Positions 5,361 to 54,320 of a DNA stretch of 64,000 bases are shown here, piece by piece. The stretch comes from Streptosporangiaceae bacterium. GTDB lineage: Bacteria > Actinomycetota > Actinomycetes > Streptosporangiales > Streptosporangiaceae. Each line of letters begins with the position of its first letter. Position 1 is the first letter of the stretch. A program made the translations under genes and the position numbers. Location: contig JAOPYK010000051.1 of assembly GCA_025964695.1 (NCBI GenBank), positions 1-64,000 of the forward strand. The letters are read 5' to 3'. The notes beneath the pieces were generated by a model. That model was not told the origin of the DNA. It made no database searches and saw nothing but the letters and a program-made list of their open reading frames with translations.

Positions 5361-5456
5361 GAAGTGGATCTCCTCGTCCTGTAGCCGACAGGCAGCCGCG
5401 CCGCCACCTCCCACACTCTTCCGTGCTGCGTTTATGCTGTACAACGAAGAGATCGC
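5361..5456. promoter_or_regulatory. Divergent MFS/LysR promoter region
   Basis: These 96 bases separate the divergent MFS and LysR starts and must hold both promoters. The segment TTTATGCTGTACAAC next to the regulator start is the only AT-rich part and the likeliest LysR/RNA polymerase contact. No clean inverted repeat is visible. Confidence 0.4.
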
Positions 5457-6401
5457 ATGACTGTCATCAATCTGGAGCATGAAGTGGAGCTGCGCCATCT
5501 CGAGCACTTTGTCGCGGTCGCCGAGGAACGAAGCTTCACCCGCGCCGCGGCGCGGGTGCACCTTGTGCAGTCGGCCCTGTCCGTCTCGGTCCGGTCGCTG
5601 GAGCGCGAACTCGGAAGCCGACTGTTTGAGCGCACCACCCACCACGTCGAGTTGACCGACGCCGGCCAGGCGCTACTCGTCGAGGCGCAACGCACGCTCG
5701 CCGCGGCCGAGGCCGCCCGCGACGCCGTCGCCGCCGTACACGGCGGGGTGCGCGGCACCGTGCGGGTGGGCATTATGCACTCACTGGCGCTCATCGACCT
5801 CGGCGACCTGCTGGTCCGCTACAACCGGGAGCGCCCCCAGGTGCAGATCGTGCCGAGCGCCGCGCAGGGCGGCTCCACCGAACTGGCCCGCCAAGTCACC
5901 AACGGTAGGCTCGATCTCGCCTTCGCCGCGCTTCCCGGCGGGTACCCGCCGGGCCTGACCGTGCGCCCACTGGCATCCGAACCGATGTCACTGGCCTGCC
6001 CACCCGATCACCCGTTCGCCAGCCGCCGCGTCATCCCGCTTGCGGAACTCGACGGCGCACGGTTCGTCGATTTTCCGCCCGGTTGGGGAACCCGACGCAG
6101 CGTCGACCAGATCTTCCTGGACTCCGGTCTACAACGCGAGATCGCGGTCGAGGTGGCCGATATCCCCACCGTTGTCGATCTGGTCAGGGCGGGTTTCGGG
6201 TTCGCGTTCCTGAGCCCGTCCCTCGTCCCCGGCTCCCGCCGTATCGCCCTGCGCACAGTGCGGCCGAGACCGGTGTTCGCCGTATCACTCATCACACCGG
6301 ACGACCGTCCGCCGTCAGCGGCGGCCCGAGCGCTGATCGACCTCGTCCTGACCACCTATCCCCATCCGGACTCTCGTCAGGAACGGTCCGCGGAAAGTTA
6401 A
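5457..6401 (+). CDS. LysR-family transcriptional regulator
   Basis: A 314-residue LysR-type regulator. The N-terminal winged helix is LRHLEHFVAVAEERSFTRAA (about residues 12-31), continuing into LVQSALSVSVRSLERELGSRLFER. The effector-binding domain runs from about residue 95 and has the usual tripartite features (VRVGIMHSLA, LDLAFAALPG, GFGFAFLSPSLV). The ATG at 5457 has GAAGAG six bases upstream. It is divergent from the MFS exporter gene, so it probably activates that gene in response to a small molecule. The last 15 residues are polar and variable. Confidence 0.88.
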   Translation: MTVINLEHEVELRHLEHFVAVAEERSFTRAAARVHLVQSALSVSVRSLERELGSRLFERTTHHVELTDAGQALLVEAQRTLAAAEAARDAVAAVHGGVRGTVRVGIMHSLALIDLGDLLVRYNRERPQVQIVPSAAQGGSTELARQVTNGRLDLAFAALPGGYPPGLTVRPLASEPMSLACPPDHPFASRRVIPLAELDGARFVDFPPGWGTRRSVDQIFLDSGLQREIAVEVADIPTVVDLVRAGFGFAFLSPSLVPGSRRIALRTVRPRPVFAVSLITPDDRPPSAAARALIDLVLTTYPHPDSRQERSAES

Positions 6402-6415
6402 CCGGTTGGTCAGTG

Positions 6416-6597
6416 AGGAAGACGGCCGCGGCGGAGTACGAGCAGGGACTGGCCACCCCGATCGGCCCCAGCGTCACGGCGGCCGAGGTCGCCGCCACGT
6501 CGGCCGGCTCGCCTCCCCAGGGGCATCGGCGATCACCGGCCAGTACGTGGTCGTCGACGGCGGCAACTCGATCATGGAAGAGCGGGCACTGCCCTAA
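6416..6597 (+). pseudogene. C-terminal remnant of an SDR oxidoreductase, frameshifted
   Basis: The segment starts in one frame as KTAAAEYEQGLATPIGPSVT and AAEVAAT, then continues in a second frame as GRLASPGASAITGQYVVVDGGNSI to a stop at 6597. ITGQxxxVDGG is the signature end of FabG-like short-chain dehydrogenases. One frameshift near 6498 separates the two parts. The Rossmann and catalytic SYK parts are absent, so this is the last 60 or so residues of a dead gene. It abuts the convergent Ig-like protein gene. Confidence 0.8.
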
Positions 6598-7010
6598 CGC
6601 GTGACGGTGAGCGTAGTGGTCGCGGAGACGCCGTCGACGTCGACCGAGACGGTGTAGGTGCCCGGCTTGGTGCGCTGGGTGAGCGACAGAGTGGTGCTCG
6701 CTGCGCCGCCTTCCACGGCGACCGTGGAGCTCTGGCCGTCGGGGCCGCTCACCGTGGCGTCGGTGCCGTCGGCGACGTTGGTGGTGGTGATGGAGACGGT
6801 GTAGGAGCCGCGCTGCCCGATGGTGCCGGGGCTAAGGCTGGCCGCGACCGAGGGGGTGGCGGGCGCGGTCTTATGGGGGTGCGGGTGCCGTGCGGCCGCA
6901 GCCGGGTGGGAGTGCGCGGCGTCGGCGAACGCGGTGCCGGTCAACGCGGTACCGCCCAGAAGGGTCACGCCGAGGATGCCGGCCGCTGCGAGGGGCTTGC
7001 TGAAGCGCAT
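6594..7010 (-). CDS. Secreted Ig-like domain protein
   Basis: A 138-residue exported protein. Residues 1-29 are a Sec signal peptide (MRFSKP, hydrophobic core, then AFA before DA). A His/Ala/Pro-rich linker (about 31-50) follows, then one beta-sandwich of about 85 residues with the pattern SYTVSITTTNV, DATVSGPDG, GTYTVSVDVDGV, TTTLTV, typical of bacterial Ig-like domains. It has no sortase signal or membrane anchor and probably acts outside the cell. Its stop overlaps that of the SDR remnant. The leader holds a short G5/C5 hairpin near 7061-7080. The function is unknown. Confidence 0.7.
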   Translation of the reverse strand: MRFSKPLAAAGILGVTLLGGTALTGTAFADAAHSHPAAAARHPHPHKTAPATPSVAASLSPGTIGQRGSYTVSITTTNVADGTDATVSGPDGQSSTVAVEGGAASTTLSLTQRTKPGTYTVSVDVDGVSATTTLTVTR

Positions 7011-7218
7011 GATTCAAGGTCCAATCTCGGGCAAACCGGGCAAATCTGGTGATTCACCCTGAGGGGGTTGCCCACCCCCCAAACCTCGCAACTCTCCATG
7101 AAACTACTCTGAGAACGGCGTGAGAGCCGTGCTGGTGATGTGCAAAGAATCCGCTGAGTTTCAGCGGTACGACCAGGTCAGGCATGGTGCCGGAGGGCCA
7201 CGGACAGTGCCGTCAGCC

Positions 7219-7350
7219 GCCGTCGCCAGGTCCGGGTCCGAATCCACCATCAAGACCCATGTCAGCAAGGTCCTCGCGAAGATCGGCGCCCGCGACCGTG
7301 TCCACGCCGTCATCATCACCTACGAGGCAGGCATCGTGGGGACCGGCTGA
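7219..7350 (+). pseudogene. C-terminal fragment of a LuxR/NarL response regulator
   Basis: SESTIKTHVSKVLAKIGARD followed by RVHAVIITYEAGIV is the recognition helix and last helix of a LuxR (GerE) DNA-binding domain, ending in the usual position for NarL-type response regulators. The receiver domain and the first HTH helix are missing upstream, so only about 40 residues survive. It is clearly not functional alone. Confidence 0.75.
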
Positions 7351-7519
7351 CCCCGGTGTCGCGGGCTTCGGCCGAGCGGGCTCCCCCGCATCGCTGTCAA
7401 CGGTCCCCCGGCTGGGTACCGGTTCCTGATCCGCCGTGCCGGCGAACGTAGGGACGACCCGCCCAGCCGGGCAGCCGTCCTGCCGTGGTGACAGCGCCCT
7501 GAAACGCAGCCCACGCACG

Positions 7520-7559
7520 ACGAAGCCCTGCCCCCCCAACGAGGAGAGCAGGGCTTCGT
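7520..7559. terminator. 12-bp inverted repeat
   Basis: ACGAAGCCCTGC and its exact complement GCAGGGCTTCGT are separated by 16 bases. It lies after the LuxR remnant and could be that gene's old terminator. No T-run follows. Confidence 0.5.
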
Positions 7560-7607
7560 GGTTCCCTCGCCTGGGCGAGGCCGGCTGTTCACCCGGCACT
7601 GAGCTAT

Positions 7608-7684
7608 GGATCATCCCCGCGATGCGGGGCCGATGGTACCCGCGGGCAGAGCCACGGATCACTCCCGCAACAGCGGGCTCATTA
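7608..7684. repeat. Two degenerate type I-E-like CRISPR repeat units
   Basis: Unit 1 begins GGATCATCCCCGCGATGCGG at 7608; unit 2 begins GGATCACTCCCGCAACAGCG at 7656. Both have the GGATCA lead and a small CCCGC/GCGGG dyad as in actinobacterial type I-E repeats. The period is 48 bases, shorter than the 60-61 of a live array, and the units differ at many positions. No cas gene is in the window. At best this is a decayed array. Confidence 0.3.
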
Positions 7685-7778
7685 AGGGCACGACGATAAG
7701 GGGCTTGGCGGGCTCCGTCAGCAGAACGACGAAAACATCACGCCCTCCGCAGGTCTGTAGACCGACCGGACAGCCGAA

Positions 7779-7811
7779 CGCCCCGACCGCACGGGGGCGA
7801 CGGTCGGGGCG
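7779..7811. terminator. 11-bp GC hairpin
   Basis: CGCCCCGACCG and its exact complement CGGTCGGGGCG flank an 11-nt loop. Its orientation cannot be assigned, since no complete gene ends here. Confidence 0.5.
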
Positions 7812-8105
7812 GGACTGCACCTACCATCTCACCAGCGCGCGGAAGCGGCTAGAGCCGGACAGGATCGGCATCGGCACGCACCGACCGTGTGCAACACAAA
7901 TGGGAGCCTGCCGCCACCGTGGAGAGGCGGGACGTCTGCGTCAACCGGCTGAACAGGGTCATCCCACCGGGGCGGTCTGGGGAGGTGTTCGTCTGGTGGC
8001 AGGGGTGGCTTCGCCTCTGGTTAACGTTCCGGGCGTAGCGTGCCGCGACCACGGCGGGGGCGTGTGCATGGGTCAGGTTCCCCGTCCCGAATCTGAGGGT
8101 GGCGC

Positions 8106-9401
8106 GTGTCCGGAGTCGACGCGATCAACTCGACGCAGCAGATGGAGATGGAGCCATCGGCTCGGGCAATCCGGTCCAGGAAGCGGTGGTGGCTGCTGCC
8201 TGCCGCGGTGGCCCTCGCGTTCGCACTGCTCCAGGGGATCGGCGGCCCCCGGATCACGTTCGGCGGCGACTCGGAGTCCTACGCTCTGATCAGCCTCCGG
8301 CTGTACGGGACTCCAGAGGCTCAGGCCCGGCAGGAGATCGCCTACGCCACTTGTCTCGACAAAGCGCGTAGCGTCGAGTGGGGCTCAGCGGTCGACCCGC
8401 TACGTTTCCGGACTCCCGGGTCATCGCAGGACCTGCGCCGCGCCTGCGCCACTCAGCAGGTGCAGGCCCCGACCGCCAGAAGCCTGCGCTATGAGGCGAT
8501 CTTCAATGGGCGGGTCGGCTATCCGCTACTCGCAGGATTGCCCATCAAGCTCTTCGGCATCTCGCACGGCCTCTGGGTGACCAGTGTCGCTGTCACCGCG
8601 CTGGGTGGCTTCCTCGTCGCTGTGCTGTTGGCCGAAGCCGGACTCGGCACCGCCGCCCTGCTGGCCGGTGAGCTGATCTTCCTGCTGGGGCCGCTCGGCA
8701 GATGGGGGGTCTACCCGCTCGCTGAAGGCGCCCTCAACACCGCCGTCGTCGCAACTCTGCTCGGTGCTTGGTGGCTGCTCCAGCGCCGCCTTTTGCTGGG
8801 CGGCACCGTCTGCCTGTTGGGCCTGGCGGCGGTCGTCACCGTCAAGTACTCCGGTGGCACCCTGATGGCCGCCTGCCTGGCCGGCGCGGGCGTCGGTTGC
8901 ATGGTGACCGTGCGCCGATACCGCCACGCGGGCAGCGCGATACTGGCGGTCGGTGGCGCCTTCCTGGCCGCGGGAGTATGGCTGCTCTCCTCGGCGCTGG
9001 GTCTGCCGGGCCTCTCGGAGACGTTGCAGGACACCTTCACAAGGCACTTCCATCACCGCCCCGTCGACGGTGTTTGGGGTCTGCTGGCCCAACTCGAAGT
9101 GGTCTGCTGGAGGGAATGGCTGCGGCTCCAGGCGTCCGCCCCGGCCTTGCTGCTGGCCGCCGCCCTGGGTCTGTGGCTGCTCTTCCGCCGCCGCCCGGCA
9201 CTCGGCTGGCTCGCCGTCGCCGCCGCAGGGCTCGGGCTGTCGACTATCGTCGCGCATCCGCTGGTGTATGAGGCGGACCGCCTGGGAGCCCTCATGTGGA
9301 TGCCGGCCGTCCTTGGCCTGCCCTTCCTCCTGGACGGAGTGCTGCGGACCGAACACAGCGAAACGCCCCACCCTCCCGAGGGCGGAGCGCTTTGCAGGTG
9401 A
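8106..9401 (+). CDS. Polytopic membrane protein, GT-C glycosyltransferase-like
   Basis: A 431-residue integral membrane protein with roughly ten hydrophobic segments starting at WWLLPAAVALAFALLQ (about residues 28-43). The first outside loop carries GGDSESYALISLRLYG, an acidic motif after the first helix like those of GT-C glycosyltransferases that use polyprenyl-phosphate sugars. The loop also has Cys85 and a second Cys near residue 119. The GTG at 8106 has GAGGG upstream. It stands alone, so its role in glycan or cell-wall decoration is an inference. The C-terminal tail is polar and His/Pro-rich. Confidence 0.6.
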   Translation: MSGVDAINSTQQMEMEPSARAIRSRKRWWLLPAAVALAFALLQGIGGPRITFGGDSESYALISLRLYGTPEAQARQEIAYATCLDKARSVEWGSAVDPLRFRTPGSSQDLRRACATQQVQAPTARSLRYEAIFNGRVGYPLLAGLPIKLFGISHGLWVTSVAVTALGGFLVAVLLAEAGLGTAALLAGELIFLLGPLGRWGVYPLAEGALNTAVVATLLGAWWLLQRRLLLGGTVCLLGLAAVVTVKYSGGTLMAACLAGAGVGCMVTVRRYRHAGSAILAVGGAFLAAGVWLLSSALGLPGLSETLQDTFTRHFHHRPVDGVWGLLAQLEVVCWREWLRLQASAPALLLAAALGLWLLFRRRPALGWLAVAAAGLGLSTIVAHPLVYEADRLGALMWMPAVLGLPFLLDGVLRTEHSETPHPPEGGALCR

Positions 9402-45804: not shown

Positions 45805-45841
45805 CCAAATGATCGTGGTGCCACCCCTCGATGACTTGCCC

Positions 45842-45868
45842 GACGAGGAGCTCTCCGGTCTCCTCGTC
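45842..45868 (+). promoter_or_regulatory. Hairpin in the long leader of the MFS-fusion operon
   Basis: GACGAGGAG pairs with CTCCTCGTC over 9 bp with a 9-nt loop, in a leader of about 145 bases between promoter and start. It may modulate translation or be neutral. The leader frame is open in phase with the pump from an ATG at 45809. Confidence 0.4.
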
Positions 45869-45940
45869 CGGCTCAGCATGAGCTTCTGCTGCACGGCGCG
45901 CGAGCAAGTCACCCCCGGACTTCGGAGCAAAAGGAGTTTC

Positions 45941-48424
45941 ATGGCAACCGCAGCATCGGCCGATGTGTGGGCGGCGGCACCTGATGCGGCCGCCCCGATG
46001 TCCCATCGGCAGATCATGGAAGCGCTGTCCGGGCTGCTGCTCGGCTTGTTCGTTGCGATCCTGTCATCGACCGTCGTGGCGAACGCACTGCCAACGATCA
46101 TCGCCGATCTGCACGCGAGCCAGACCACCTATACATGGGTGATCACAGCGACCCTGCTGGCGACGACGGTCTCCACCCCGATCTGGGGCAAGCTCGCGGA
46201 CCTGACGAGCAAGAAGATCCTGGTCCAGCTGGGCCTGGTCGTCTTCGTGGCCGGTTCTGCGTTCGCGGGCCTGGCACAGAACCCGGCAATGCTGATCACA
46301 GCCCGCGTCATACAGGGCATCGGTGCCGGCGGCCTGACCGCCCTGGCGCAGGTGATCATGGCCGTGATGATCTCGCCACGTGAGCGCGGCCGTTACTCCG
46401 GCTATCTGGGCGCGGTCTTCGCGCTGGCCACCATCGGTGGTCCGCTGATCGGCGGCGTCATCGTCGACACGTCGTGGCTCGGCTGGCGCTGGTGCTTCTA
46501 CGTCGGCGTGCCCTTCGCCGTGATCGCCCTGCTCGTCCTGCAGAAGACCCTTCATCTGCCGGTGTACAAGCGCAGGGTGAAGGTCGACTGGGGTGGCGCC
46601 GCACTGATCACCATCACGGCCTCCCTGCTGCTGGTGTGGGTGTCGTTCGCCGGTGACAAGTACGACTGGCTGTCGTGGCAGACCGGCGCCATGGTCGGCG
46701 GCACGGTGGTCCTGGCGCTGTGCTTCGTGTTCGTCGAGACCCGGGTCAGCGAGCCGATCGTGCCGCTGCACCTGTTCCGCAACCGGACGTTGACCCTGGC
46801 CGTGGTGGCCAGCCTGCTCGTCGGCGTCGCGATGTTCGGCGCCACGACGTTCCTCAGCCAGTACTTCCAGCTGGCTCGCGGCGAGACACCGACGGCGGCG
46901 GGTGTGATGACCCTGCCGATGATCGCGGGCCTGGCGCTGGCGTCCACTCTCGCCGGGCGGATCATCACCGCGACCGGACGCTGGAAGATGATCCTGGTGC
47001 TCGGCGGTGGGCTGCTCACCGTGGGCTACAACCTCATGAGTCTGCTGCGCTACGACACCGCCTACTGGCAGATCGCGATTTACATGTTCTGCATCGGGGC
47101 GGGCCTGGGCATGACCATGCAGAACCTGGTGCTGTCGGTGCAGAACCAGGTACGGCCGCAGGAGCTGGGGACGGCCAGCTCGGTCGTCGCCTTCTTCCGT
47201 ACGCTCGGCGGCGCGATCGGCGTCTCGGCGCTCGGCGCCGCCCTGTCCAACCGGGTCGCCCATTACACGTCCGCCGGCCTCGCGCAACTGGGGATCCATG
47301 GCACCGGCAGCGGCGGCTCGATCCCGAAGCTCTCCGCGCTTCCCGCCCCGGTCCGCGCGGTCGTCCAGGAGGCATTCGGCCACGGCATCGGGAACGTGTT
47401 CCTGTACGCCGGGCCGTGTGCCCTGTTCGCCCTGTTCGCGATCCTGCTCATCAAGGAGGTACCGCTGCGTACCTCGAACCTCGGGCAGTCGCAGGCCGAC
47501 GCGGTGCCGCCCGCACCCGTGGGGCACACCTCGCTGGGCGGCCGTCACGCCCACCGCCAGGAGCGCGAGCTGGTCTCCGTCGGCGCCGACACCCAGATCC
47601 TGCCGAACGGCCAGGTCACCGCGTCGCTGCCGGTGTACGCCTCCGCGGGAACCGGGGAGCCTCACGACGGCGGCGTGATCCGCGGCTTCGTGCGCGGCGG
47701 GGACGGCATCGCTGTGACCCATGCCGCGCTCACGCTGATCGACGTGCGGGGGCATCAGGTCGGCCGCGCGGCCACGGACGCCGGCGGACGATACGAACTA
47801 CCGACCCCCGGCAGGGGCACCTACGTGTTGATCGTCGCGGCGGATGACCACGACCCGCAGGCCGCGACGCTCGTGGCCGGTGACCAGCCGGTCGACTTCG
47901 ACCTGGTACTCATCGGCTCCAGCGGCCTGTCCGTCACCGTGCGCGGCATGAACGGCACACCCGTCGGGGGCGCGATGGTCGTCCTGACGGACGTACGGGG
48001 TGAGGTCGTCGCCGCCGGCACGACCGATGCCGCCGGCGGCTTCGCCTTCACGGCGGTGACCGCGGGGAGCTACACGCTCGCGGTCAGCGCGGCCGCGCAC
48101 CGTCCGGCCGCGATACCCGTCGAGGCCGGCAACGGGCAGAGCCGCCACGAGATCGAGCTGCTGCCCGGCGTCCGGGTGCACGGAACGGTCCGGGCCGAGG
48201 GACGGGGCCCGGTCGCCGACGCCCGCGTCACACTGCTCGACGCCGCCGGGAACGTAGTCGGCGTCGCGACCACCGGGCCCGACGGGGAGTACGCCTTCGC
48301 CGACCTCACCGGCGGTCAGTACACGGTCATGGCCAGCGGATACCCACCTGTGGCGAGCGGGGTCAACCTGTCCGGCCAGGGCGACGACGCGCACGACGTC
48401 TGGCTCGGCCATCCCGCCGAATGA
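45941..48424 (+). CDS. MFS pump (DHA2) fused to three carboxypeptidase-regulatory-like domains
   Basis: An 827-residue protein. Residues 25-540 are a 14-TM DHA2-type proton antiporter: ALSGLLLGLFVAILSSTVVA at the start, motif A GKLADLTSKKIL and LGGAIGVSALGAAL near the end. After a linker (about 541-575), three beta-sandwich repeats follow at about 577-660, 661-741 and 742-827, each with a V(R/T)G...P(V)xGAxVxLxDxxGxxV, T(D)xxGxYxFxxLxxGxYxLxVxA pattern. Such transthyretin-like domains are usually outside the cell. The ATG at 45941 with AAAGGAG is preferred over ATG 45809. First gene of a MarR-controlled operon with YceI. Confidence 0.88.
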   Translation: MATAASADVWAAAPDAAAPMSHRQIMEALSGLLLGLFVAILSSTVVANALPTIIADLHASQTTYTWVITATLLATTVSTPIWGKLADLTSKKILVQLGLVVFVAGSAFAGLAQNPAMLITARVIQGIGAGGLTALAQVIMAVMISPRERGRYSGYLGAVFALATIGGPLIGGVIVDTSWLGWRWCFYVGVPFAVIALLVLQKTLHLPVYKRRVKVDWGGAALITITASLLLVWVSFAGDKYDWLSWQTGAMVGGTVVLALCFVFVETRVSEPIVPLHLFRNRTLTLAVVASLLVGVAMFGATTFLSQYFQLARGETPTAAGVMTLPMIAGLALASTLAGRIITATGRWKMILVLGGGLLTVGYNLMSLLRYDTAYWQIAIYMFCIGAGLGMTMQNLVLSVQNQVRPQELGTASSVVAFFRTLGGAIGVSALGAALSNRVAHYTSAGLAQLGIHGTGSGGSIPKLSALPAPVRAVVQEAFGHGIGNVFLYAGPCALFALFAILLIKEVPLRTSNLGQSQADAVPPAPVGHTSLGGRHAHRQERELVSVGADTQILPNGQVTASLPVYASAGTGEPHDGGVIRGFVRGGDGIAVTHAALTLIDVRGHQVGRAATDAGGRYELPTPGRGTYVLIVAADDHDPQAATLVAGDQPVDFDLVLIGSSGLSVTVRGMNGTPVGGAMVVLTDVRGEVVAAGTTDAAGGFAFTAVTAGSYTLAVSAAAHRPAAIPVEAGNGQSRHEIELLPGVRVHGTVRAEGRGPVADARVTLLDAAGNVVGVATTGPDGEYAFADLTGGQYTVMASGYPPVASGVNLSGQGDDAHDVWLGHPAE

Positions 48425-48497
48425 CCTGAATCCGCCGGCCCGCGCCCGCGAACAGGCCGTCCCGGCGGGCGGATCACACGTGACGACAAGGAGCACC

Positions 48498-49358
48498 ATG
48501 CACACCAGCCCGCACCTCTCCAGGGGAACACCGAACGAGCAGCGCGGACTGCACGCCCGGGTGCGCACCAGGGACGGCTGGGCCGTGCAGCACGCGGTCG
48601 CCACCGTGACCGACACCTCCGGCCGTCAGGCCGCCCGCGCCGAGGCGGACGCCGACGGCACGGTCGTGACCGAAGCGCTGGAACCCGGCGTCTACACCGT
48701 CGTCGTGACCGCGATCGGTTACGCGCCCGCCGCCTCGACCGCGATCGCCACCAGCTCCGGCAGCGCCGAGCTCGGCACGATCGTGCTCACCCGGGCGGGC
48801 AGCGTGGAGCTGCCACCGCCCGGCGTGTGGACCATCGACCCGGCGCATTCGACGATCGCCGTGACCACGCAGTACCTCGGGCTGACCGCTGTGCACGGGC
48901 GGTTCGGCGATTTCGGCGGCAGGATCGACATCGCCGCGGCCGTCGAGGCGTCCACCGTCACCGCCGACATCACGGCGGCGTCGATCGAGACCGGCAACGG
49001 CATGCGCGACGACCACCTGCGCTCCCCCGACTTCCTCGACATCGAGCGCCACCCGACGATCACGTACCGCGGCACAGGGCTGTCCGCCGCCGGCCCCGAC
49101 CGGTGGATCGTGCACGGCACGCTGACCCTCTGCGGCATCAGCCGGCCGGTCGATCTCGCCCTGAGCTACCTGGGCACCGGCCCCGACCCGTGGGGCGGCG
49201 TGCGCGCCGCGTTCCGCGCGGTCACCGAGCTGCGCCGCGCGGACTTCGCGATCACCTTCAACCAGGTCCTGGAAGCGGGGATCTCCATGATCGGCGCCAC
49301 CCTCAAGGTAGAACTGGACATCCAGGCCGTCCAGGGCGAATCCTTTCCGTCAGCCTGA
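48498..49358 (+). CDS. YceI-family protein with N-terminal regulatory-like domain
   Basis: A 286-residue protein without a signal peptide. Residues 14-105 form one carboxypeptidase-regulatory-like sandwich (HARVRTRDGWAVQHAVATVT ... LEPGVYTVVVTAIGYAPAA), as in the adjacent pump. Residues 112-282 are a YceI domain: WTIDPAHSTIAVTTQYLGLT, GRFGDFGG, SPDFLDIERHPTITYRG and LTLCGISRPVDLAL. YceI barrels bind polyisoprenoids or other long lipids. The ATG at 48498 has AAGGAG; the upstream GTG 48480 is less likely. The gap after the pump gene is 73 bases. The two proteins may handle the same lipophilic compound. Confidence 0.9.
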   Translation: MHTSPHLSRGTPNEQRGLHARVRTRDGWAVQHAVATVTDTSGRQAARAEADADGTVVTEALEPGVYTVVVTAIGYAPAASTAIATSSGSAELGTIVLTRAGSVELPPPGVWTIDPAHSTIAVTTQYLGLTAVHGRFGDFGGRIDIAAAVEASTVTADITAASIETGNGMRDDHLRSPDFLDIERHPTITYRGTGLSAAGPDRWIVHGTLTLCGISRPVDLALSYLGTGPDPWGGVRAAFRAVTELRRADFAITFNQVLEAGISMIGATLKVELDIQAVQGESFPSA

Positions 49359-49391
49359 TCGTCGCCGGAGATCGGGCGGGTAAGAGGAGCG

Positions 49392-49868
49392 ATGATGGAA
49401 GCACCAGCGACAGCGACCGAGGGCGACTACGAGGCGGTCGAGCACGAACTCGGGGTCCTCCTGCGCCGCGCGCGGGCACTGTCCGCTGAGATGGCCCGCG
49501 AGGTGCACCCGGAGCTGGAGTTCGCGGCGTACGGGCTGCTCGTCGGCATGCACGACTGCGTTCGCTCGCGACCCAGTGATCTGGCCGATTACCTGGGCGT
49601 CGGCAAGGCCACCATCAGCCGGCAGATGAAGGTGCTGGAGCAGCTGGGCCTGATCGAACGCCAGCCCGACCCCGATGACGGCCGCGCCCACCTCCTGGTC
49701 CTCACCGAGGAGGGCCGTCGGCGGCTGGACGTCGCCCGTACCGCCCGCCAGAAACGCTTCCACGCGATGCTCGACACCTGGCCGGCGGAGGACGTACGGG
49801 TGCTGGCCGGAATGCTGGCCCGCTTCAACGAACTCGCCGAGCGGGTGAGTAAGGCCAACCGCGGCTGA
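49392..49868 (+). CDS. MarR-family regulator of the MFS-YceI operon
   Basis: A 158-residue winged-helix regulator. The HTH and wing are RPSDLADYLGVGKATISRQM (about 57-76) and KVLEQLGLIERQPDPDDGRA (about 77-96), then HLLVLTEEGRRRL. AGAGGAG precedes the tandem ATGs. It is the last gene of the operon that starts with the MFS fusion, 33 bases after YceI. It is the natural candidate for the TTGCTTAGGGCAA boxes upstream of the pump, giving negative autoregulation lifted by a phenolic or lipophilic ligand. Confidence 0.92.
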   Translation: MMEAPATATEGDYEAVEHELGVLLRRARALSAEMAREVHPELEFAAYGLLVGMHDCVRSRPSDLADYLGVGKATISRQMKVLEQLGLIERQPDPDDGRAHLLVLTEEGRRRLDVARTARQKRFHAMLDTWPAEDVRVLAGMLARFNELAERVSKANRG

Positions 49869-49924: not shown

Positions 49925-50866
49925 TCACATGCCGGCTCTCCGCTGGGGATCGGTGATCCCGCCCGGGCAGGCGAGTGCGGCGATGTCCCATCCGGCGCGG
50001 CGCGCACCGGCCTGGTAGGCGCTGTCGTAGAAGTCCAGTACGGCGGCGTGCGGGTCGGCCTCGGCCCGTGCGCCGTCGTAGGGAAGCACGGCCAGATGGC
50101 TGCCTCGCTGAGCGATCCACCGGGCCGCGCCTGGTACCAGGGGCTCGCTGTCCAGTCCCTCCGGCTCGGGAGCCGTATAGGAGTAGAAAGCGGGCTCGGG
50201 GAAGGCGTCGTCCCCGAACCAGAAACCGAAGCTGATCACCTCACGGGAGTAGGCCTCGCGGGTCACCGGGTCGACCTCGGCCGGCTGGTCGATCACCCGG
50301 TCGGAGAACCGGGTGCAGGCGATGTCAAAGGTGTGCCAGAAATGATGGACCGGGCTGATCTTGCCCGAAAAGCCCGAGGCGAACTCCTCCAGCACCAGGC
50401 CCACCTGGCTGAGAACCTGCCAGTAGCGGGTGACCATGGCGGGGTCGTAGACCGCGTGCTCGGTGTCGTCGGCGAACGGCCGGCCGGAGTCGGGCAGGTC
50501 GAACGGCCGGGGGATGTTCATGTCCACCTGGATGCCCAGCGTCTCCAGGGCCCGCATCGCCGCACGGTAGAAGGACGCCACCGACTGCCCGTACAGCGGA
50601 AACGACAGGTCCCTGCCGTCGACCACGGTGACGACCAGCCGATGGCCGACGAAGTCGAAGTCGATCGTGAAGATCGGGTTACCGTCCGTCTGTCCCATCG
50701 GCCGTGTGGTGAGCCCTCGCCCGGTGAGATGGAACGGCACGTTCCACCAGTGGTTGCGACGGACCCCGGCCGCGAGCCTGATCTTGCCTATCACCTGGGC
50801 GAAACGGTGCAGCGTGGACTTGGTGTCCTGCCATTCGGCCAGCGGCACCGCGGGAAACAGCTCCAT
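49925..50866 (-). CDS. DUF5996-family protein
   Basis: A 313-residue cytosolic protein. The family start is clear: LPxAxW as VPLAEWQDTKSTLHRFAQVI (about 7-26), GKIRLA, NHWWNVPFHLTGRGLTTRPM (about 38-57). Later conserved blocks are VHHFWHTFDIACTRFSDR, EVISFGFWFGD and PGAARWIA. DUF5996 is uncharacterised; the His/Trp-rich sites suggest ligand or metal binding. The ATG at 50866 begins the conserved block; the GAGAGGGAAC upstream is a fair ribosome-binding site. It stands alone. Confidence 0.82.
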   Translation of the reverse strand: MELFPAVPLAEWQDTKSTLHRFAQVIGKIRLAAGVRRNHWWNVPFHLTGRGLTTRPMGQTDGNPIFTIDFDFVGHRLVVTVVDGRDLSFPLYGQSVASFYRAAMRALETLGIQVDMNIPRPFDLPDSGRPFADDTEHAVYDPAMVTRYWQVLSQVGLVLEEFASGFSGKISPVHHFWHTFDIACTRFSDRVIDQPAEVDPVTREAYSREVISFGFWFGDDAFPEPAFYSYTAPEPEGLDSEPLVPGAARWIAQRGSHLAVLPYDGARAEADPHAAVLDFYDSAYQAGARRAGWDIAALACPGGITDPQRRAGM

Positions 50867-51589: not shown

Positions 51590-53449
51590 TCAGGTGGCCG
51601 GTACCGCGGCATCGGTATGGTTCATCATGAGGATGACCCCCCGGATCCCGCGGCCGTCGCGCAGCAGCGAGGAGTCCACCCGCAGCCGGATCTCCCGCCC
51701 GCGCCGGTTGATCGCCTCGATCGAGACGGCGGACTTGGCCGGCAGTTCCTCACTCAGCGTCCGCTGGATCACGGGAATCAGTTCCTTCGAGGGCAGACCG
51801 ATGTCCAGGGCCAGAAGGTGCCGTCCGGTGGCCTCATCGGCCCGCAGGCCCCACAGGTCCTCGGAACCCGGGCTCCAGACGCTGACCCGCAGCTCGACGT
51901 CGACCACGATGACGGCTGTTCCCAGGCTCTGCAGCACTGACGCGAGGAAGGCGTTGGTGCCGTGGAGTTCGTCGGTGCGGGTGCGCAGCGCGTCGTTGAT
52001 CTCCTGAAGCTCGTCGTTGGTGGACTGGAGCTCCTCGTTCATGGTCTCCAGCTCCTCGTTGGTCGACTGGAGCTCCTCGTTGGTGGTCTCCAGCTCCTCG
52101 TTCGTGGACTGGAGCTCCTCGTTGGTGGTCTCCAGCTCCTCGTTGAGCGACTGCAGTTCCTGGTAGGCCCGCTCCAGCTCCTCGTTGGCGTGCTCGAGCT
52201 CCGCGCGGAGCCGGTTGTAACGGGTGACCTCGGTGAAACTGATGCTGACGCCGATCAGCGGACCGTCGTCATCGCACAGTGGGACCACCGAGACGTCGTA
52301 CACAGTGGCGCCGCCCCCGCCGGGCCGCTGCCATTCCACGCTCTGCAGTTCCACCGGGCGTACCTCCCGCTTGGCCCGGTCGATCAGGGAGCGCAGCTCG
52401 ACAGGACGGTAGGACACCTCCAGATCCTGGAACGGACGGCCGACGTCCGTCGCGCGGAAGCCGAACAGCGTCTCGGCGCGCGAGTTGGCCATCGCCAGCT
52501 TGTCCTCGGCGTCCACGGCGAGCTGGGCCACCGGCCCCGCGGCCAGGACGGCGGCGCGCAACCGCGTCACCGGCGAGCCGTTGTCGGCGGGATACTCGTC
52601 GGCCCGGCGGGTGATCACCGGGGTGGTCCGTGGGATCTTGCAGAACAGGCGCTTGCGCAGGTCGACGGGCTCGAACCGGTCGACGTGGTTCATGAGCATC
52701 TCGGCCTTGCCGAGAAAGACGTACCCGGGGTCGGACAGCGCGAAATGCAGGCGGCGCAGGATGGTCGCCTGGGTCTCGGCATTGAAGTACATGAGGGTGT
52801 TGCGCACCGTCAGCAGGTCGACCCGGGAGATGGGCGCGTCCTTGGTGAGGTCGTTCCGCCCGAAGATGACCTGGCGTCTGAGGTCCCTGCGGAAGGTATG
52901 GCGGCCACCACCGGACTCGAAGTACTTCTCCCGGAACCCGGGGGGCAGATCACTCAGCCGGCGTTCTTCGTAGACGCCGGCGCGTGCCACCTGCAGGGCC
53001 TTCTCATCAAGGTCGGTGGCGTAGATCTTCACGCGTGCGCGGAACTCGTCGACGCCGAGTTCCTCGACCAGGATCATCGCGAGCGTGTACGCCTCCTCTC
53101 CGGTGGCGCAGCCGGCGCTCCAGATCCTGAGGCCCGCGCCCGGCGGCTTGGCGGAAAGGATCTCGGGGACGACCCTCTCGCGCAGCACGTCCCAGGCCGA
53201 CCGGTCCCGGAAGAACGAGGTGACGTTGATGAGCAGGCTGTCGAACAGGTGCCCGTACTCCTCCGGTTGCACCTCGAGATGGTCCCGGTATTCGGCATAG
53301 GACGAGACCCCGACCGCGTTCATCCGACGTGCGATCCGGCGCACCAGCGTCGGGCGCTTGTAGCCCATGAAGTCGATGCCACGCGTCTCCTTGAGGAGAA
53401 CGAGCAGCCTCTCCAGCTCCGCCTGATCATGCTCAAGCTCTGTGCCCAC
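51590..53449 (-). CDS. CheR-type methyltransferase with PAS domains and coiled coil
   Basis: A 619-residue cytosolic protein. CheR N domain (about 10-70), CheR SAM domain (about 80-275) with IWSAGCATGEEAYTLAMIL (SAM loop), IYATDLDEKAL and LLTVRNTLMYFN. A first PAS (about 300-410), a coiled coil (about 420-500) of EELETTNEELQSTN repeats, and a second PAS (about 505-615). CheR normally methylates chemoreceptor glutamates; with PAS domains and the linked CheB it probably modulates another signalling protein. In the VRNTL motif the usual CRNxLIYF reads VRNTLMYF. The GTG at 53449 has GAAGG upstream. Confidence 0.9.
   Translation of the reverse strand: MGTELEHDQAELERLLVLLKETRGIDFMGYKRPTLVRRIARRMNAVGVSSYAEYRDHLEVQPEEYGHLFDSLLINVTSFFRDRSAWDVLRERVVPEILSAKPPGAGLRIWSAGCATGEEAYTLAMILVEELGVDEFRARVKIYATDLDEKALQVARAGVYEERRLSDLPPGFREKYFESGGGRHTFRRDLRRQVIFGRNDLTKDAPISRVDLLTVRNTLMYFNAETQATILRRLHFALSDPGYVFLGKAEMLMNHVDRFEPVDLRKRLFCKIPRTTPVITRRADEYPADNGSPVTRLRAAVLAAGPVAQLAVDAEDKLAMANSRAETLFGFRATDVGRPFQDLEVSYRPVELRSLIDRAKREVRPVELQSVEWQRPGGGGATVYDVSVVPLCDDDGPLIGVSISFTEVTRYNRLRAELEHANEELERAYQELQSLNEELETTNEELQSTNEELETTNEELQSTNEELETMNEELQSTNDELQEINDALRTRTDELHGTNAFLASVLQSLGTAVIVVDVELRVSVWSPGSEDLWGLRADEATGRHLLALDIGLPSKELIPVIQRTLSEELPAKSAVSIEAINRRGREIRLRVDSSLLRDGRGIRGVILMMNHTDAAVPAT
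52023..52148. repeat. 42-bp tandem repeats coding for the coiled coil
   Basis: Three near-identical 42-base units start at 52023, 52065 and 52107, with partial units on both sides. Each encodes 14 residues (EELQSTNEELETTN on the minus strand), two heptads. Such repeats can expand or contract by slippage, which would change coiled-coil length without breaking the frame. Confidence 0.85.
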
Positions 53450-53525
53450 CTTCAGAGCCTAGGCGCGGACCGGCCCAGAGCGAACACGAAAAGCCACTGG
53501 TTCCTCACAATTCACTACCGCTTCC

Positions 53526-54221
53526 CTACCACTCCCTACGACCGGGGACGGGCCCGGGAGGGACGTCTTCGGCCGTGACCGGCGGATGCAGTAGTTCCTG
53601 CACTCGGCGCTCGATCTCGGGAGCGAGCGCCCCCCGCCCTTCCTGTACGGAAAGCCTCGTCTGCCTGCCGAGATAGGCCGCGATCTCGTCGACGTTCGCC
53701 ACGAAGGCATCGCGGGTGAGCGCGATCGCCGCTCTGGGCATCCCCTCGTATCCCGCCTCCGCCAGATCCTGGACCGCGACGAGTCCGCCCGCCTCCTCGA
53801 TGGCGGCGCAACCCGCGGATCCGTCGTCGAGTGCCCCGCTGAGCACGACACCGATGACCCCCGGCCCGCGCGCCACCGCCGCGCTGAAGAACAGCGGGTC
53901 GGCCGCGGGCCGTACGCCTTTCTGGCGCGGAGCCGGGGAAAGCCGCACAAGGTCCCCGTCCAGCATCAGATGCCGGTTGGGCGGTGCGACCAGGACGCGC
54001 CCCGGCTCGGGCCGCTGCCCGTCCGTCGCGAAGTCCACCGGCAACCGGCTCGAGCGCCCGAGGACCCGCGCCAGCGAGCTGCCGCCGGAGGCGGGCAGGT
54101 GCATGACCACCAGAAGTGCGGCTGGCAGGTCGGCGGGGAGCGTCGCGAACAGCCGTTGCAGTGCGGTGACGCCGCCCGCCGACGCCGCGATGGTGACGAG
54201 ATCGCGGATTCTAGTCGTCAT
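53526..54221 (-). CDS. CheB-type methylesterase domain protein (no receiver)
   Basis: A 231-residue protein with the CheB catalytic domain only. The catalytic Ser is in IAASAGGVTAL (Ser14), His in VVMHLPAS (about 41) and Asp in LSGALDDGSAG (about 133-137). It lacks the receiver domain that normally gates CheB, as in fused CheB-CheR-PAS proteins. Here it is split and placed 77 bases before the CheR-PAS gene. The ATG at 54221 begins the family-like MTTRIRDLVTIAAS; the ribosome-binding site is modest. No MCP, CheA or CheW is near. Confidence 0.9.
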   Translation of the reverse strand: MTTRIRDLVTIAASAGGVTALQRLFATLPADLPAALLVVMHLPASGGSSLARVLGRSSRLPVDFATDGQRPEPGRVLVAPPNRHLMLDGDLVRLSPAPRQKGVRPAADPLFFSAAVARGPGVIGVVLSGALDDGSAGCAAIEEAGGLVAVQDLAEAGYEGMPRAAIALTRDAFVANVDEIAAYLGRQTRLSVQEGRGALAPEIERRVQELLHPPVTAEDVPPGPVPGRREW

Positions 54222-54320
54222 GGGATGCACCCACCTGCTCAGCACAGCGGACCCTGGCCTTCAGCGTAGCCCTCGATGACGAGCCGGCTCTCCCACTCCG
54301 CGGACTCGTCTCATAGCGGG

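Follow-up and report, generated by a model that had tools for sequence, protein, structure and literature searches.

Why should an efflux pump and the binding protein encoded next to it both carry the same kind of small beta-sandwich domain? The question is raised by a three-gene operon in a 64-kb stretch of DNA from a Streptosporangiaceae bacterium (contig JAOPYK010000051.1; the whole stretch is called the window below). The first gene encodes a DHA2 pump of the major facilitator superfamily (MFS) whose C-terminus bears three CarboxypepD_reg (PF13620) domains, referred to as CP1, CP2 and CP3; the second encodes a YceI protein with an N-terminal CP domain (CP-YceI) and the third a MarR family regulator. 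An initial annotation had read a 14-helix DHA2 pump with three such sandwiches, a CP-fused YceI and a MarR gene at this place, and domain searches and structure models bear this out. We hypothesize, with about an even chance of being right, that this is an inducible efflux operon in which CP-YceI would dock on the pump, either feeding it or capturing its cargo.

Architecture and predicted folds

The architecture is established by domain searches. The pump open reading frame (ORF; 45941-48421) matched MFS_1 (E 1.1e-49), scored above the cut-off of the DHA2 model TIGR00711 (231.4 bits against 230.2) and contained three stretches matching PF13620 (E 4.9e-33; 113.8 bits, cut-off 32.3), giving a core of residues ~1-510, a disordered linker (511-575), CP1 (~579-657), CP2 (661-740) and CP3 (744-822). 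The second ORF matched the YceI domain (PF04264; E 1.5e-38; 132.9 bits, cut-off 23.7) and the CP domain (E 3.2e-9; 37.4 bits, cut-off 32.3), and the last regulator matched MarR_2 (E 2.2e-11). Translation of CP-YceI is likelier to begin at ATG 48498 than at GTG 48480, because a stretch resembling a ribosome site (AAGGAG) lies near 48488. Chance or an assembly artefact is ruled out, as the same gene order recurs in many genomes. No Rfam match was found in the window.

In the models, the domains fold as had been proposed. The AlphaFold2 model of the pump (mean predicted local distance difference test score, pLDDT, 79.4; 700 of 827 residues at 70 or above; 511-575 below 50) shows a helix bundle of the DHA2 type and three beta-sandwiches that stand apart from one another, and its nearest folds are EfpA, EmrB, an Rv1410 homologue (8pnl) and QacA. 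DHA2 proton-coupled drug export is predicted for it. Hydropathy recognised 13 core helices and two stretches inside CP2; the helix that it missed corresponds to residues 61-88 of the model, for a total of 14, and once this helix is counted the loops of the N-terminal side show an excess of lysine and arginine. Because of the 14 helices and these positively charged loops, the C-terminal tail of the pump is predicted to be cytoplasmic.

Alignment and model show the YceI barrel to be intact, in agreement with the initial annotation: it aligns with the polyisoprenoid-binding TT1927b across residues 117-285 without gaps, and the model reaches a template modelling (TM) score of 0.91 to E. coli YceI (1y0g) and 0.87 to TT1927b, with low confidence at residues 261-271. 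PA0423, titled an 'antibiotic sequester', BcnA and BcnB are also among its nearest folds, and the titles of the nearest structures describe YceI proteins as binders of isoprenoids and hydrophobic antibiotics. The CP part resembles the transthyretin-like domain found in carboxypeptidase D (5aq0; TM 0.81, E 0.012). W34, Q50 and R53 are invariant in the YceI CP domain, and H38 is nearly so. As a signal-peptide test, we examined the 80 best of 578 relatives from a scan of named genomes. One locus (L147) lacked a start codon near the CP domain, and among the other 79 genes none had a hydrophobic N-terminal 15-mer by hydropathy, the only property used; the nearest start codon was mostly directly at the CP domain. 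CP-YceI is thus predicted to be cytoplasmic, in the same compartment as the pump tail, so that docking is topologically possible.

Linkage and joint movement of the pump tail and CP-YceI

If tail and CP-YceI work together, are they kept together? The relatives come from Streptomyces, Streptacidiphilus, Actinomadura, Sphaerisporangium, Planotetraspora, Microbispora, Nocardioides, Isoptericola, Kutzneria and other genera. In 75 of the 80 loci an MFS pump with three CP domains lay directly upstream of CP-YceI on the same strand. Two of the five exceptions (L096 and L150) are contigs that begin at the CP triple, with the pump core cut off; in L115 a CP-tailed MFS gene lies just downstream on the other strand, and in L121 CP-YceI is preceded by a tailed pump, then a MarR gene and a freestanding CP triple. 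In the fifth, L081 (Streptomyces macrolidinus, 5370-8813), an in-frame stop separates the pump core from the CP triple, which itself continues as an open frame into CP-YceI; this could be either a real rearrangement or a fault in the sequence, and the locus is not counted as evidence. Around 25 control loci with unfused yceI genes, neither a CP match nor a pump match above 30 bits was found within ~1.5 kb; one pump match of 26 bits occurred near L039. A MarR-like ORF lay beside the unfused gene in 14 of these 25 loci, being located just upstream on the opposite strand in L034, L035, L037, L040, L042, L045, L048, L053 and L055.

The linkage was also observed within the window's own family (341 genomes; CP-YceI matches counted at E <=1e-60, four of them partial), where the CP tail lay immediately upstream in 106 of 114 CP-YceI matches listed and, counted from the other side, CP-YceI followed 106 of the 150 tails listed. 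The eight exceptions among these matches comprised two at a contig start, one fragment and five (L225, L226, L230, L279 and L280) in which a freestanding CP triple stands directly upstream of CP-YceI, behind a pump with two CP domains. In 61 genomes of the genus of G057, inferred to be Streptomyces, a high-scoring CP-YceI was present in 40 genomes, and the tail was directly upstream of 40 of 41 such genes; for the 41st (G491, locus L278) a single CP domain was recognised behind the pump. The co-occurrence that the initial annotation had suggested looking for is therefore strong and old.

The same 61 genomes allowed operons to be defined by their operator instead of by their proteins. The double operator described below occurred once each in 38 genomes and never in a reversed control, and in 26 of these 38 operons a high-scoring CP-YceI was encoded 3.0-4.2 kb downstream. 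All 26 had the CP triple, 24 of them in frame with the pump, the frame being broken inside the pump core in the other two (L268 and L275). In the remaining 12 operons the operator precedes the same MarR and pump core (705-733 bits), tail and CP-YceI both being absent, and an operon with just one of the two was found in none of the 38. On a tree of the cores (36 of the operons plus 12 outgroup loci, L268 and L275 being left out), three joint changes of tail and yceI are needed, two of them forced by well-supported branches; a sign test gave p 0.5 and is powerless with so few independent changes. Joint presence and absence is consistent with a functional pair, and a single deletion could also remove both neighbours.

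To what, then, is CP-YceI tied, the tail or the whole pump? Two loci of one Streptacidiphilus fuscans strain, L092 and L098, have a common block of 1827 bp with 87% DNA identity that begins shortly ahead of CP1 and stops where yceI ends; their YceI proteins are 98% identical and their pump cores 43%. Among the 282 locus pairs with cores less than 40% identical (76 of 77 rows compared, the truncated L118 being left out), mean identity was 28.9% for the core, 48.9% for the tail, 61.2% for the YceI CP domain and 66.5% for the YceI barrel. The cores of L088 and L119, both from Streptomyces acidicola, gave no DNA alignment, with aligned identities of 73% for the tail and 77% for yceI. A partial Mantel test (rows thinned from 76 to 56 at 90% YceI identity) gave a correlation of 0.62 between tail and YceI given the core, which none of 2000 permutations reached; YceI is tied to the tail more than to the core.

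Close relatives of some cores lack the module altogether. The 15 L088-core relatives fetched from the 61 Streptomyces genomes (63-84% identical) all lacked CP domains and YceI, as did all 15 L136-core relatives fetched from the genus of G308 (58-63% identical). Other L088-core relatives bear the tail: one on G494:C261 (74%) has tail and CP-YceI, and one on G535:C3 (64%) has the tail without CP-YceI, an arrangement also present in seven inspected loci of the family. Taken together, these results suggest that tail and CP-YceI behave as one module that has probably moved between pump cores. The triple can even stand alone: a freestanding three-CP protein was encoded right before CP-YceI in Kutzneria, in G027, G064, G066, G067, G068 and G071, and in the source genome itself, where contig C21 holds a second, divergent locus (L056, 6932-11457, minus strand) consisting of a pump with two CP domains, MarR, the freestanding three-CP protein and CP-YceI.

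The domains themselves are not one shared unit, as had been supposed from the window. In a tree of 116 domains (short ones; 49 of 113 inner branches open; YceI CP rows thinned from 38 to 21), CP1, CP2, CP3 and the YceI CP domain fall into four lineages that are largely apart, a few rows straying among the CP1-3 groups and the YceI CP domains lying on one side of a single branch (Shimodaira-Hasegawa-like approximate likelihood ratio test, SH-aLRT, 87). The freestanding triple of Kutzneria groups with pump CP2 and CP3, and its first domain is nearest CP1, without support. We thus reject a recent copying of the YceI CP domain from a pump, and any binding between the two sides would be as different partners.

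Operator, regulators and the SAV4189-SAV4190 operon

What controls the operon? Two copies of TTGCTTAGGGCAA ahead of the pump are the sole occurrences on the plus strand of the window of TTGCN5GCAA, a pattern that is its own reverse complement, and a TATAAAT-like stretch lies between them. Guo and colleagues have described a related operator, the 13-bp palindrome TTGCCYKHRSCAA, by which the MarR protein SAV4189 represses both its own expression and that of the pump gene sav_4190 (PMC6036246). The window copies differ from this consensus at 3 of 13 positions and so are not strict matches. In the 80 loci (1.27 Mb), the strict TTGCCYKHRSCAA occurred 105 times on the operon strand, 104 of them within 400 bp before the operon, and it was upstream in 51 of the 76 loci in which the operator and the upstream MarR could be tested. 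A second MarR gene stood in front of the pump in 57 of these 76 loci and in the same-genus genome G001. The window retains only a C-terminal remnant of it, in frame with the pump, and thus departs from the SAV4189-SAV4190 order of MarR repressor followed by MFS pump in having lost most of its upstream regulator. The downstream MarR may have taken over after this loss. The single MarR of the initial annotation consequently holds for the window's genome and not for the system.

Judged by its operator, regulator and pump, the version found in Streptomyces appears to be this same operon, SAV4189-SAV4190. Identity between the window pump core and those of L075, L138 and L092 is 62-70%, and the window core falls in the same tree as the operator-linked cores. 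The counterpart of SAV4189-SAV4190 in S. coelicolor is SCO4032-SCO4031. Both SCO4031 and SCO4032 rise 10 min after novobiocin, an effect ascribed to loss of supercoiling (PMC6637917). In the study of SAV4189 (PMC6036246), hygromycin B and thiostrepton release the repressor, with sav_4190 increased about 75- and 71-fold, and deletion of sav_4190 raised avermectin by about 56-67%. That deletion extended to +2445 of the gene, and the pump is therefore long enough to carry the tail; the deletion may also have hit a downstream YceI gene, if one is present there. The text of that paper, as covered, contains none of the words YceI, sav_4191, carboxypeptidase and isoprenoid. Hence the earlier statement that no such system had been described no longer stands for the operon, and in that text it still does for the YceI and carboxypeptidase parts. 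In the open-licence literature surveyed, mostly titles and abstracts, neither the pump tail nor a pump with CP-YceI is described.

Proposed mechanism, known systems and neighbouring loci

In the mechanism that we favour, the DHA2 core would export a toxic, probably antibiotic-like compound, and the CP1-CP2-CP3 tail would hang in the cytoplasm as a docking platform. Cytoplasmic CP-YceI would take hydrophobic molecules into its barrel, attach to the tail through its own CP domain and, so docked, capture the compound near the membrane and feed it, or report it, to the pump; a docked cytoplasmic binder could make cargo locally more concentrated or detect its presence. MarR would keep the operon off until the compound is sensed. 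Here we infer the docking, the ligand binding by CP-YceI and the direction of transfer. On a wider view, to which we give somewhat less than an even chance, such operons would represent an unrecognised actinobacterial class of two-part efflux systems, with a CP-YceI carrier plugging into the transplantable tail of distant DHA2 pumps. That the tail in this class is a cargo-delivery adaptor, an inner-side counterpart of periplasmic binding partners, likewise seems to us a tentative proposal, a little short of even.

The initial annotation had also suggested the hand-over of a dedicated lipid or isoprenoid quinone. This fits poorly because the 98%-identical YceI proteins stand beside cores only 43% identical, and a general binder or sensor of hydrophobic drugs would fit better. 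BcnA, for comparison, sequesters rifampin, polymyxin B, norfloxacin and ceftazidime but not gentamicin (PMC5350466).

Several observations weigh against docking and cargo capture. Among the family tails listed, 44 of 150 have no CP-YceI following, which refutes the idea that tail and CP-YceI are strictly inseparable. Of these 44, 17 were inspected (L212-L224, L227-L229 and L231): six (L212-L215, L218 and L219) have a window-type core and a downstream MarR with YceI absent or a remnant, seven have the L088-kind core mentioned above, and four are others. A yceI remnant also lies between pump and MarR in G121 (L181) and G120. In Streptomyces, 61 of 101 tails, in 50 of the 61 genomes, are without a high-scoring CP-YceI next to them. 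Window-type CP-YceI thus goes with the CP triple, and the triple can exist without CP-YceI; since tails so often lack it, the tail needs another use and is probably functional in its own right, CP-YceI making use of that function. A second, more distant Streptomyces type of CP-YceI (L244-L251; CP domain recognised in 7 of 8) had a tail or pump nearby in none of the 8 loci inspected. Its pairing in trans with unlinked tailed pumps is unsupported, as six genomes with this type (G493, G518, G519, G522, G526 and G534; lists compared by eye) have no tail. The core retains a weak correlation of its own with YceI given the tail (partial Mantel 0.18; 66 of 2000 permutations), and adjacency alone may let one deletion or recombination move tail and yceI jointly. 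Hygromycin B is polar and would be an odd cargo for a hydrophobic barrel. Finally, deleting the sav_4190 pump gene raises avermectin, which the authors of that study rule out as a substrate (PMC6036246).

How do other explanations fare against these data? CP-YceI could be a sensor and not a carrier, gating or stabilising the pump through CP contacts once it has bound a hydrophobic ligand, with no hand-over. The linkage evidence serves this view equally, and near-invariant YceI proteins beside cores 43% identical, or similar ones beside cores ~29% identical, are easier to understand for a general sensor; yet no structural hint of gating was seen in the model, and the linker of ~65 residues (511-575), disordered there, would couple poorly to a gate. 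We consider it rather unlikely; the ligand sensed would be a drug, a fatty acid or an isoprenoid quinone.

It is distinctly unlikely, in our judgement, that pump and YceI merely act in parallel under one operator, the pump exporting and YceI sequestering the same class of compound in the cytoplasm. The frequent MarR-like ORF beside unfused yceI genes, the occurrence of tail and CP-YceI each alone in places and a joint loss explicable by adjacency would all accord with this, but it leaves unexplained both the near-constant CP triple upstream of CP-YceI, even when freestanding, and the closer correlation of YceI with the tail than with the core. The accompanying proposal that the CP domains are modules for stability or oligomerisation with no mutual binding is about as doubtful.

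A common third partner, another cytoplasmic protein bound by tail and CP-YceI or bridging them, is very unlikely in our view, although tails without CP-YceI may have another partner and the CP1-3 and YceI CP domains are distinct lineages; searches around the loci covered relatives of the pump, CP, YceI and MarR. A periplasmic system of the LprG kind is rejected, as tail and YceI are both predicted on the inner side.

Among characterised systems, EmrAB, QacA and EfpA share the 14-helix DHA2 core of the window pump, and to our knowledge none of them has a CP tail. EmrA, located on the outer side, belongs to the membrane-fusion adaptors and is not a YceI protein. LprG-Rv1410, which exports triacylglyceride in mycobacteria (PMC10576003), would be the closest working analogue by its pairing of an MFS transporter, matched by the window core through the Rv1410 homologue 8pnl, with a soluble lipid-binding protein. 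As described there, LprG, a lipoprotein of the periplasm, takes over its lipid on the outside, whereas the window binder is a YceI barrel without a visible signal peptide, predicted to be cytoplasmic and carrying a CP domain beside a CP-tailed pump. BcnA and BcnB share the barrel and capture antibiotics; unlike CP-YceI, BcnA is described as extracellular, and the parts of that paper covered here mention neither a pump partner nor a CP domain (PMC5350466).

MFS drug pumps are usually thought to be solitary on the inner side. If the proposed docking is correct, some of them would work with a soluble subunit in the cytoplasm, one that presents hydrophobic cargo or senses it. Self-resistance and antibiotic export in Streptomyces, where the module is common, matter to industry, and the natural versions of the same Streptomyces pump with and without the tail are ready-made controls. 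The MarR and pump genes of the operon have already been engineered for higher avermectin yield (PMC6036246).

Table 1. Coordinates in the window of the operon and its upstream elements.
Feature	Positions	Strand	Basis
Operator-like pseudo-palindrome copy 1, TTGCTTAGGGCAA	45758..45770		pattern search
Operator-like pseudo-palindrome copy 2, TTGCTTAGGGCAA	45792..45804		pattern search
Upstream MarR gene remnant, C-terminal part only	45809..45940	+	alignment with MarR of same-genus G001
DHA2 14-helix efflux pump with CP1-CP2-CP3 tail, 827 aa	45941..48424	+	domain search, hydropathy, model
CP1-CP2-CP3 tail of the pump	47666..48421	+	domain search, domain tree, model
CP-YceI: CarboxypepD_reg 24-103 and YceI barrel 117-285	48480..49358	+	domain search, model
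MarR family regulator, last operon gene	49392..49868	+	domain search

Further tailed pumps were noted in passing. In the source genome, locus L057 (G000:C82, 3839-6571) has a CP-tailed pump ending about 60 bases before the contig end, and L058 (G000:C99, 1-1158) a CP-tailed gene cut at the contig start, with no YceI match beside it. In L066 (G012:C136, 5699-8407), a CP-tailed pump without YceI lies between ORFs resembling sulfate-activation genes, by eye candidates for cysD and cysN identified without a search. Downstream in the window, a DUF5996 protein (49925-50866, minus strand; E 2.6e-120) is convergent with the MarR gene, followed at 51590-54245 on the minus strand by a CheB methylesterase adjoining a CheR methyltransferase, the latter with PAS domains and a repetitive coiled-coil-like stretch.

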